A stretch of 64,000 nucleotides of DNA. Origin: Acidobacteriota bacterium. GTDB taxonomy: Bacteria; Acidobacteriota; Vicinamibacteria; Vicinamibacterales; SCN-69-37. Both the position numbers and the translations under genes were made by a program. Each line of letters opens with the position of its first letter. Positions within the stretch are counted from its first letter, which is position 1. Shown here in pieces: positions 36,935 to 39,604 of the stretch. Below the pieces are notes generated by a model, which was not told the origin of the DNA, did no database searches, and saw only the letters and a list, made by a program, of their open reading frames with translations. The DNA lies in assembly GCA_947467605.1 (NCBI GenBank), contig CANIII010000020.1, positions 30,406-94,405 on the forward strand, in the 5' to 3' direction.

Positions 36935-37294
36935 ATGTCGACGACGCTACCGCCTACCATCGCTCAGCATTTCGACGGCCGCGGCAAGGACGTGCGGGCC
37001 ACCTACGATCGCATTCTCGCCATCGCGCGAGAGTGGGGCGACGTCAAGCCCGAAGCCCGAAAGGCCTCGATCCACCTGCTCCGGGTCGCGGTATCCTTCG
37101 GGACGATTTCGCCGCGCAAGGACGTCCTCGTCCTCACGTTCAAGTCGACCTCCGACATTCGCAGCCCGCGCATCACCAAGCACGACCAGGCGGCCAGCGG
37201 ACACTGGACACTCGAAGTGCGACTGAACAACGCCAAAGAAGTGGACCACGAGCTGCAGCAGTGGCTCCGGGCCAGTTACGCGTTGGCGACCTAA
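36935..37294 (+). CDS. DUF5655-like protein
   Basis: KASIHLLRVAVSFGTISPRKDVLVLTFKS...WTLEVRLNNAKEVDHELQQWLRASYAL. Confidence 0.65.
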   Translation: MSTTLPPTIAQHFDGRGKDVRATYDRILAIAREWGDVKPEARKASIHLLRVAVSFGTISPRKDVLVLTFKSTSDIRSPRITKHDQAASGHWTLEVRLNNAKEVDHELQQWLRASYALAT

Positions 37295-38409
37295 AGCAGC
37301 AACGCTTCCACACGGTGCGCATGCACCATGTCTTCGTCATCGGACCACCTGAAGATCGTGAACCGCCCGTCCTGTGATGCCACAAGTGCGGTGGCATCGC
37401 GCTGATCGTGCACAAACTGCACCGCCGAGAGATGGCGCGTGCCGCCGAACTGTCCTGGCGCGACGATCGTATGCTCACTACCTTCGATCGGCTCGGTGAC
37501 CACAATCCGCTCCACCGACGCACTGCCTTTGCGGCGCGTGATCTTCACACCGAATGCGAGGACGTCGTAGGCGTCATTCATCACCATCGCACCATCGACC
37601 GCAGTCAGACCGGCCACACCTTCAACGGCATGACGCATGTCGTCGACCGCTTCGGACGTGGCCGCCGTGACGCCCTGTGAACGAATGAGATGGCTGAGTG
37701 CGGTGAACGGCGGATTGAGCGCATAGGTCATCGGCGTGATGACCGAGAGCAGCCATTCATCGGATCCGGACGGTGTCACGAGCAACGCGCCGCCGCGACC
37801 GTGGCTGCGCATCGAGGCGGCGAGCTGCACGAGCACGTTGATGCCGTCGGTGCCAGCAGCCGGCCCAATGGGATGGCCGAAGCCCAGCAGTGACTGCAGC
37901 ACACCGGGGCACTCGGGAATCTGGGCGGTGCGTTCGTCAACGAACTTGATGTGATCGCCCTCGAGGACGGCGACGTTGACGAACTTCCCCATCAACTGGC
38001 TGCGCTCTTTCACGACAAGCAGGCCTGACATCACGACTTCGATCACGAAGCAGTGCGGTGGCAGGTCGCGCGTCGTGCCCCAGACGCAGAGCTCGCCGTC
38101 AATGGGCCAGACGCCGAGGTGGATCCCGGGGCGCTCGACAGCCGGCGCGAGTTTGGCGAGCGCCGCTGCACTCGGCGGCAGCGCGTGCCCGAACAGCAGC
38201 GGGCCGCCCGTGTGGTCTGGCGACACGTACGCGAGCGAAATCTTCGGCGTGACGCCTTCTTCGCGACGCAGACTGGCCCAGAAGGCGGCGTCGATCAACG
38301 TCTCGATCACCGCCGCGTCCGGCGCCTTCATGCCGGACGGATAGTTGGCGAAGTGCGCTGCCATGCGCGGCGCAATTGCTCGGGCTGCTGGATATGCAGG
38401 TTCTGCCAC
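37291..38409 (-). CDS. Diadenylate-cyclase-like sensor protein (DisA_N/DACNV-type)
   Basis: DAC-like DGAMVM at 37581-37596 and GTRHLSA near 37423-37443; GTG start directly after the ATPase stop. Confidence 0.65.
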   Translation of the reverse strand: MAEPAYPAARAIAPRMAAHFANYPSGMKAPDAAVIETLIDAAFWASLRREEGVTPKISLAYVSPDHTGGPLLFGHALPPSAAALAKLAPAVERPGIHLGVWPIDGELCVWGTTRDLPPHCFVIEVVMSGLLVVKERSQLMGKFVNVAVLEGDHIKFVDERTAQIPECPGVLQSLLGFGHPIGPAAGTDGINVLVQLAASMRSHGRGGALLVTPSGSDEWLLSVITPMTYALNPPFTALSHLIRSQGVTAATSEAVDDMRHAVEGVAGLTAVDGAMVMNDAYDVLAFGVKITRRKGSASVERIVVTEPIEGSEHTIVAPGQFGGTRHLSAVQFVHDQRDATALVASQDGRFTIFRWSDDEDMVHAHRVEALLL

Positions 38410-39564
38410 TTAGAACGTCCTTCTCGCGATCCATTCACGATACAGCGAGTCGGTGAGCATGTAGCGTGGCCCATCGCGCATGACGATGTCTTCGCGCACG
38501 AGGGCGGCAATTGACGACTGCACGCTCGACGCGCCGGCGAGGCGATGGCGTTGACGCACGTCGGCTGACAAGAGCTCGCGGCCCTGCTCAAGCACGAGTG
38601 CGCGCAGCACGCCGCGCTGCGCGAGCGTGAGTCGCTGCCACTGCTCTTCGAAGACCGTCGCCTGCTGGCGCATCATGCGTGTCAGTGTGGTGTGCAGGTC
38701 TTCGAGCCCCACTGTTTTCCGGCCCGCCGCCCGAACGTCGTCCCACGTCTCGTGTGCGAGTCGTTGCACGTCGTAGGGCACGTTGTCGGCGAGGTCGACG
38801 AGCGCAGCGCCGAGGCCCGCTTCGGCGCGCAGGCCGGTCTTCGTGAATCGCGCCTCAAGCCAGGTGGCGAATTCGTCGGGGTCGATCTTCTGCAGACGCA
38901 TCACCGGACCGGCTTTGTAAAACGGCCGGCGCGAGCTGATCATGCGCTCCATCAGCGACGGCTCGGATCCGGCGAAGACGTAGCCGACGTCGCGTTGCTG
39001 CTGCACGGCGGCGCGGAGTGCCTCTTCGACAGCGTTGCCGCCATCAAACGACGCAATCGTTTGAAACTCATCGAGCGCGATGGCCATCGGTCGCTTGCGC
39101 GCCGCCGCGATCCGACCGGGCAGCGCAAAGACTTCGGCGGCGAGGCGTTCGACATCGCGCGATGACCGTACGGCCGGGAACGACAACGACACCGCCGAGG
39201 TGCCCGGGCCCGAGGCGTCGATCGTCACTTCTGGATGAAACGTGCGCATCAAGTCGGCCGCCCACTGTCGTAGCCGGCTGACCGGCGTGTCGGCGGCGAG
39301 CAGCGTCTGCGCGTAGGCCTCGAGGAAGCCAACATAGGAGCTCGAGCCGGCCACGGTCACCGACACGGTCAGGACCCGTTCCTTTGCGAGTGCGTCGAGC
39401 GTGCGCCGGATCAGCGACGACTTGCCGTAGCGGCGCGGCGAGATGAGAAACACCTTTTGGCCGGCCCGAAGGTCAGTCGTGAGGCGATGGTATTCCTCGT
39501 CGCGATCGGCAAACGCGCCGGCCGCGACAATTTCTCCGTAGACGAAAGGGTTGTCGGCTGCCAT
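38410..39564 (-). CDS. AAA/archaeal-type (MNS/STAND-like) P-loop ATPase
   Basis: FADRDEEYHRL, Walker A SPRRYGKSSLIRR, Walker B MAIALDEFQ, C-terminal winged-helix-like region. Confidence 0.85.
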   Translation of the reverse strand: MAADNPFVYGEIVAAGAFADRDEEYHRLTTDLRAGQKVFLISPRRYGKSSLIRRTLDALAKERVLTVSVTVAGSSSYVGFLEAYAQTLLAADTPVSRLRQWAADLMRTFHPEVTIDASGPGTSAVSLSFPAVRSSRDVERLAAEVFALPGRIAAARKRPMAIALDEFQTIASFDGGNAVEEALRAAVQQQRDVGYVFAGSEPSLMERMISSRRPFYKAGPVMRLQKIDPDEFATWLEARFTKTGLRAEAGLGAALVDLADNVPYDVQRLAHETWDDVRAAGRKTVGLEDLHTTLTRMMRQQATVFEEQWQRLTLAQRGVLRALVLEQGRELLSADVRQRHRLAGASSVQSSIAALVREDIVMRDGPRYMLTDSLYREWIARRTF

Positions 39565-39604
39565 TACCGTGAATGCCGTAATGATTACCCTGAATGACAT
39601 AATG
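39563..39604. repeat. Tandem 21-bp repeat (18/21 identity) at divergent promoter junction
   Basis: ATTACCGTGAATGCCGTAATG | ATTACCCTGAATGACATAATG. Confidence 0.9.

Follow-up and report, generated by a model that had tools for sequence, protein, structure and literature searches.

Gene organization of the locus

The window analysed here is a stretch of 64,000 nucleotides from an Acidobacteriota bacterium. Two genes on its minus strand encode a P-loop ATPase and, downstream of it, a 372-aa protein with a DACNV domain (Table 1). The original prediction that these two genes abut was confirmed, and the spacing at their junction is exactly zero: the TAA stop codon of the ATPase gene occupies 38412–38410, and the GTG start codon of the next gene, with AAGGA 8 nt upstream, occupies 38409–38407. 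The second gene is called the sensor gene below, a label that derives from Pfam's name for the DACNV domain. The tight junction is retained in three species of the window's genus, with an overlap of 1 nt (TGATG) in G002 and of 4 nt (TTGA) in G001. The dN/dS of the sensor gene was about 0.21 in a single pair (the window's genome compared with one other genome of the genus), and that of the ATPase gene was 0.07–0.15. Purifying selection acts on both genes.

The gene block M20–DUF5655–sensor–ATPase–VTT is retained within the genus. The DUF5655 protein (36935–37294, plus strand; E 7.6e-14) is encoded convergently with the sensor gene, whose end it overlaps by 4 nt. At the other side, an ORF for a VTT-domain protein (plus strand, TTG start at 39551) overlaps the start region of the ATPase gene on the opposite strand (window 39551–39600). 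The ATPase ATG is at 39564 and a second in-frame ATG is at 39600; the VTT ORF overlaps the ATPase start in either case, so that at least one of these starts has probably been misassigned.

Table 1. Features of the ATPase and sensor genes, with positions in the window
Feature	Position	Strand	Remarks
P-loop ATPase gene	38410..39564	-	384 aa; the sensor gene follows directly
Walker A, PRRYGKSS, residues 43-50	39415..39438	-	inspection
Walker B-like, IALDEFQ, residues 162-168	39061..39081	-	inspection
TAA/GTG junction	38407..38412	-	0 nt between genes
DACNV-DAC protein (sensor) gene	37291..38409	-	372 aa, GTG start, TAG stop (in range); ORF list
DACNV domain (PF21751), residues 28-113	38071..38328	-	Pfam; annotated probable sensor domain
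DAC-like region, about residues 197-356	37342..37821	-	sub-threshold Pfam DAC and profile search of PDB
GGALL, residues 206-210	37780..37794	-	counterpart of the GALI motif; alignment
DGA, residues 272-274	37588..37596	-	D272-G273-A274 invariant, 42/42
GTRHL, residues 323-327	37429..37443	-	RHR with last Arg replaced; alignment
SQD, residues 345-347	37369..37377	-	corresponds to SEE (contacts to phosphate and metal); invariant, 42/42

Domain structure of the sensor protein

Pfam places the 372-aa protein in the DACNV class, as predicted. PF21751 matches with 100.6 bits (E 5.6e-29), and the curated cut-off is 27 bits both for this family and for DAC (DisA_N, PF02457). DACNV was matched in each of 42 aligned family members, and the 41 relatives are 53–77% identical to the window protein. 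The protein had also been described as DAC-like at its C-terminus. The motifs are indeed C-terminal, with DGAMVM at residues 272–277 and GTRHLSA at residues 323–329, but the Pfam DACNV domain itself is N-terminal. The window protein shows no clear sign of a transmembrane segment (hydropathy peaks at 1.55), and it is likeliest a soluble, stand-alone, chromosomal protein. A literature search did not find papers naming DACNV.

The C-terminal region is likely to be homologous to DAC. The window protein reached 12.1 bits with Pfam DAC (E 0.15), which is under the cut-off, and alone it gave no single significant DAC match in PDB or Pfam. Across the family, DAC was matched at E ≤ 1 in 33 of the 42 members (best E 0.005), and it was the sole further Pfam family that matched more than one of them. 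When a mixed family profile (A5) was searched against PDB, diadenylate cyclases accounted for five of eight matches and were listed first, each at E 0.11–0.9. Profile comparison with a CdaA alignment was weak, with a probability of 4% (E 0.0093) for profile A1 and 47% (E 2e-4) for profile A5. This profile evidence favours a DAC fold for the region.

A sister clade of DACNV-DAC proteins (L107, L108, L110, L111, L112, L113, L150 and L151) keeps the full RHR. These proteins are homologous to the RHL type along almost their entire length (hhalign 99.8%, E 2.8e-28) and have the same architecture and the same SQD triplet. Unlike the RHL type, they have an intact RHR and a longer insert before DGA. 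Pfam DAC was matched in all eight (best E 2e-5), and DAC-family chains made up 13 of the 14 PDB matches of one sister C-terminus; the chain 2fb5, titled hypothetical protein in the PDB list, is the Bacillus cereus DAC protein (PMC7288161). The sister clade is separated with support 100/99 at a place where long branches meet in an unrooted tree.

It is very improbable that the C-terminal region is unrelated to DAC and that DGA and GTRH are coincidental in another fold. The lack of a significant single match for the window protein would agree with this explanation, as would two AlphaFold models of very low confidence (pLDDT 42 and 35), built with the window protein and L032 as sole input sequences. 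However, DGA and GTRH occur with SQD and GGALL in the DAC order and are invariant over dozens of genomes, the motifs are also present in the sister clade, whose best Pfam DAC match has E 2e-5, and DAC chains head the PDB match lists.

The upstream ATPase and its linkage with the sensor gene

The upstream protein was originally assigned to the STAND/archaeal-type ATPases. The Walker A and B motifs are consistent with this assignment, but all Pfam matches are under the cut-offs. The E-values were 5.5e-6 for ATPase_2, 2.1e-5 for AAA_16 and 2.8e-5 for AAA_22; ATPase_2 scored 26.8 bits against a cut-off of 33.2, and nSTAND1 scored 14.6 against 27.1. The window ATPase thus has Walker A and B in common with archaeal-type ATPases (ATPase_2, AAA_16) over the matched region, and differs from them in staying under the curated cut-offs and in having no fixed partner gene. 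Matches to it were found in 72 of 149 genomes, so the ATPase is conserved across the order in its own right.

The two genes had been proposed as a candidate signalling or conflict system. Their adjacency is confined to three genomes of one genus (G000, G001 and G002); outside this genus they are unlinked in the genomes searched, where, if both genes are present, the best ATPase and sensor matches are on separate contigs. Such pairing at the level of a genus lends little support to a conflict system. Nor did the neighbourhoods of homologues reveal a constant partner for either gene: ORF clustering around 43 sensor and about 40 ATPase loci, based on heuristic gene calls, found none, and the top clusters were the sensor and ATPase genes themselves and antisense shadow ORFs. 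The neighbours of the sensor gene depend on the lineage and include FtsH, a DEAD-box helicase, EF-P, HxlR, a PQQ dehydrogenase, a beta-galactosidase (LacZ) and transporters. The neighbours of the ATPase gene are likewise variable among lineages. The ATPase gene is conserved separately and adjoins the sensor gene as an operon neighbour in the window's genus only.

Two other lineages have an NTPase gene before the sensor. In five loci (L055, L066, L067, L068 and L075) the sensor gene is just downstream of a same-strand FtsH gene, with gaps of −59 to 117 nt, and in three others (L046, L052 and L057) it is just downstream of a same-strand DEAD-box helicase gene, with gaps of −28 to −1. These upstream NTPases were identified by Pfam on L055 and L066 (FtsH) and on L046 and L057 (DEAD-box helicase). 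A general NTPase theme upstream of the sensor, comprising FtsH, helicase and ATPase, was considered and rejected, because other lineages carry EF-P, HxlR, LacZ, transporters or PQQ dehydrogenase.

A genuine two-gene module for NTP-driven signalling or defence is improbable in our estimation, although the fact that the genes abut or overlap in three species of the genus agrees with it, as does the purifying selection on both. The ATPase is also weakly similar to the PADLOC model mad8 (E 8.5e-5), and the two genes co-occur more often than at random (odds ratio 3.0, p 0.0014) by a statistic that ignores kinship and assembly gaps. The conserved junction and the raised co-occurrence leave room for a functional link between the ATPase and the sensor. 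Against a module, no searched genome from outside the genus has the two genes side by side, and their neighbours in other lineages are ordinary genes. Both genes were found in 35 genomes, the sensor without the ATPase in 22 and the reverse in 32, many of these assemblies being incomplete. The sensor matches no PADLOC defence model, and plasmid or phage relatives of it were not found in the records searched. The long ORFs of the window are, by inspection, of housekeeping, transport and secreted-protein types.

Conserved putative nucleotide-binding motifs and the altered RHR

The DAC motifs were described in the original prediction as partly degenerate. RHR is altered to RHL as stated, but the alteration is fixed across the family. 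Residue 327 is L, V, I, F, M, S or Q in 49 aligned RHL-type sequences and Arg in none. In the same column over 57 sequences, L occurs 41 times, R eight times, V and F twice each, and M, I, S and Q once each; all eight Arg belong to sister-clade proteins. Since a residue other than Arg at this position is common to the whole family, RHL is a family hallmark and does not reflect local decay.

The other motif positions are strongly conserved. Across 42 sequences G, T, R and H of GTRHL are invariant, as are G206 and G207 of GGALL, and L209 and L210 are nearly invariant. In ATP-bound CdaA, contacts are made by the Leu of GALI, the Asp of DGA, the Gly, Thr, Arg and His of GTRH, the Ser of SEE and the main chain of its middle Glu, and the last Glu of SEE is a metal ligand (PMC7288161). 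The last Arg of RHR is absent from this list of ATP and metal contacts (PMC7288161). Nine of the ten CdaA contacts could be placed by alignment, at L209, D272, G323, T324, R325, H326, S345, Q346 and D347; the tenth, a main-chain Leu, had no placeable counterpart. Of the nine, only L209 shows any variation among the 42 sequences, and it is nearly invariant; the other eight are invariant (hypergeometric p about 2e-6, relative to the overall frequency of invariant columns). The metal-binding acid is by alignment the invariant D347, an Asp instead of the Glu of CdaA.

The window protein therefore has in common with CdaA/DacA (PF02457) the DGA, GTRH and Ser-x-acid triplet of the ATP and metal contacts. 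It differs from CdaA/DacA in its N-terminal DACNV domain, in having no evident transmembrane segment, in RHL for RHR and SQD for SEE, in a spacing from DGA to GTRH of 51 residues compared with 30 in CdaA, and in a Pfam DAC score under the cut-off. With the DACNV proteins (PF21751) it shares an N-terminal DACNV domain far over the cut-off and a DAC-like C-terminal region, and its subfamily departs from them by the missing last Arg of RHR. RHL-type DACNV-DAC proteins are widespread in bacteria but unstudied, and are likely relatives of the enzymes that make c-di-AMP.

Distribution and proposed relation to c-di-AMP

Searches with the window protein (P0001) gave matches in 63 of 149 relatives; these include fragments and sister-clade matches and are mostly full-length RHL-type proteins. 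DACNV occurs in 31 of 396 genomes of a phylum sample, and a broader contig scan with P0001 found a single locus. In one genome of the same family (G007:C1:28364-28757) the sensor gene is represented by fragments alone, one of which contains an in-gene TGA, and this state suggests loss in some lineages.

A canonical CdaA is encoded next to a folP-like gene in the window's genome, and a DAC match over the cut-off was found in 57 of 60 genomes of the group. Judging from its motifs, this CdaA probably already supplies c-di-AMP. No c-di-AMP riboswitch (RF00379) was found in the window's genome.

We favour the explanation, with a probability of about 0.6, that the sensor is a soluble, stand-alone DACNV-DAC protein that binds nucleotides, that its cyclase chemistry has been changed or lost, that it acts apart from CdaA, and that the ATPase is its neighbour only in this genus. 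The N-terminal DACNV domain would sense a cue, and the C-terminal DAC-like domain would bind ATP or a related nucleotide through the retained pocket (GGALL, DGA, GTRH and SQD). Since no member of the family has the last Arg of RHR, the RHL protein is most likely a nucleotide-binding pseudo-cyclase or receptor, or a cyclase of altered chemistry, and it would work alongside the canonical CdaA of the genome.

The main competing explanation is that the protein is an active cyclase, for diadenylate or another dinucleotide, that can dispense with the final RHR arginine, and hence a second, DACNV-regulated source of c-di-AMP. We consider this unlikely, if far from negligible. Invariant residues stand at the positions of the listed direct contacts to ATP and metal, Asp taking the place of the metal-binding Glu, and the sister clade with the identical SQD triplet has the full RHR. 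Triple mutants of RHR lose c-di-AMP synthesis (PMC3328451, PMC4568413, PMC13022847); all three residues were changed together in these mutants and the last Arg was not isolated, and mutation of this Arg alone was not found in the CdaA literature searched. The last Arg is outside the CdaA ATP contacts, and therefore its loss need not abolish activity. On the other hand, this Arg is invariant in 20 aligned CdaA sequences and in all eight sister proteins, yet seven different residues replace it in the RHL family, which suggests that the constraint has been lost. The presence of a CdaA that would already provide c-di-AMP also argues against a second source.

Within the favoured explanation of a nucleotide-binding DACNV-DAC sensor, a further possibility can be raised by analogy. 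In c-di-GMP signalling, degenerate cyclase and phosphodiesterase domains are well known as receptors (PMC7288161), and the degenerate GGDEF and EAL receptors are the analogue of a DAC receptor class. The RHL proteins may form a lineage-wide class of DAC fold in which the ATP pocket is kept and the last Arg is lost, and which serves as a receptor for ATP or a cyclic dinucleotide or makes a non-standard dinucleotide. We propose this tentatively, at somewhat less than an even chance. If it is true, these proteins would provide the parallel for c-di-AMP, as a naturally occurring DAC family in which the pocket looks intact and one loss has become fixed. The RHL family would then be a test of the role of the last Arg of RHR, with the RHR sister clade as a ready comparison. 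Among 162 genomes of the order, roughly a dozen carry near-full-length sister proteins and about 50–60 the RHL type, and the two types are sometimes co-resident in one genome.
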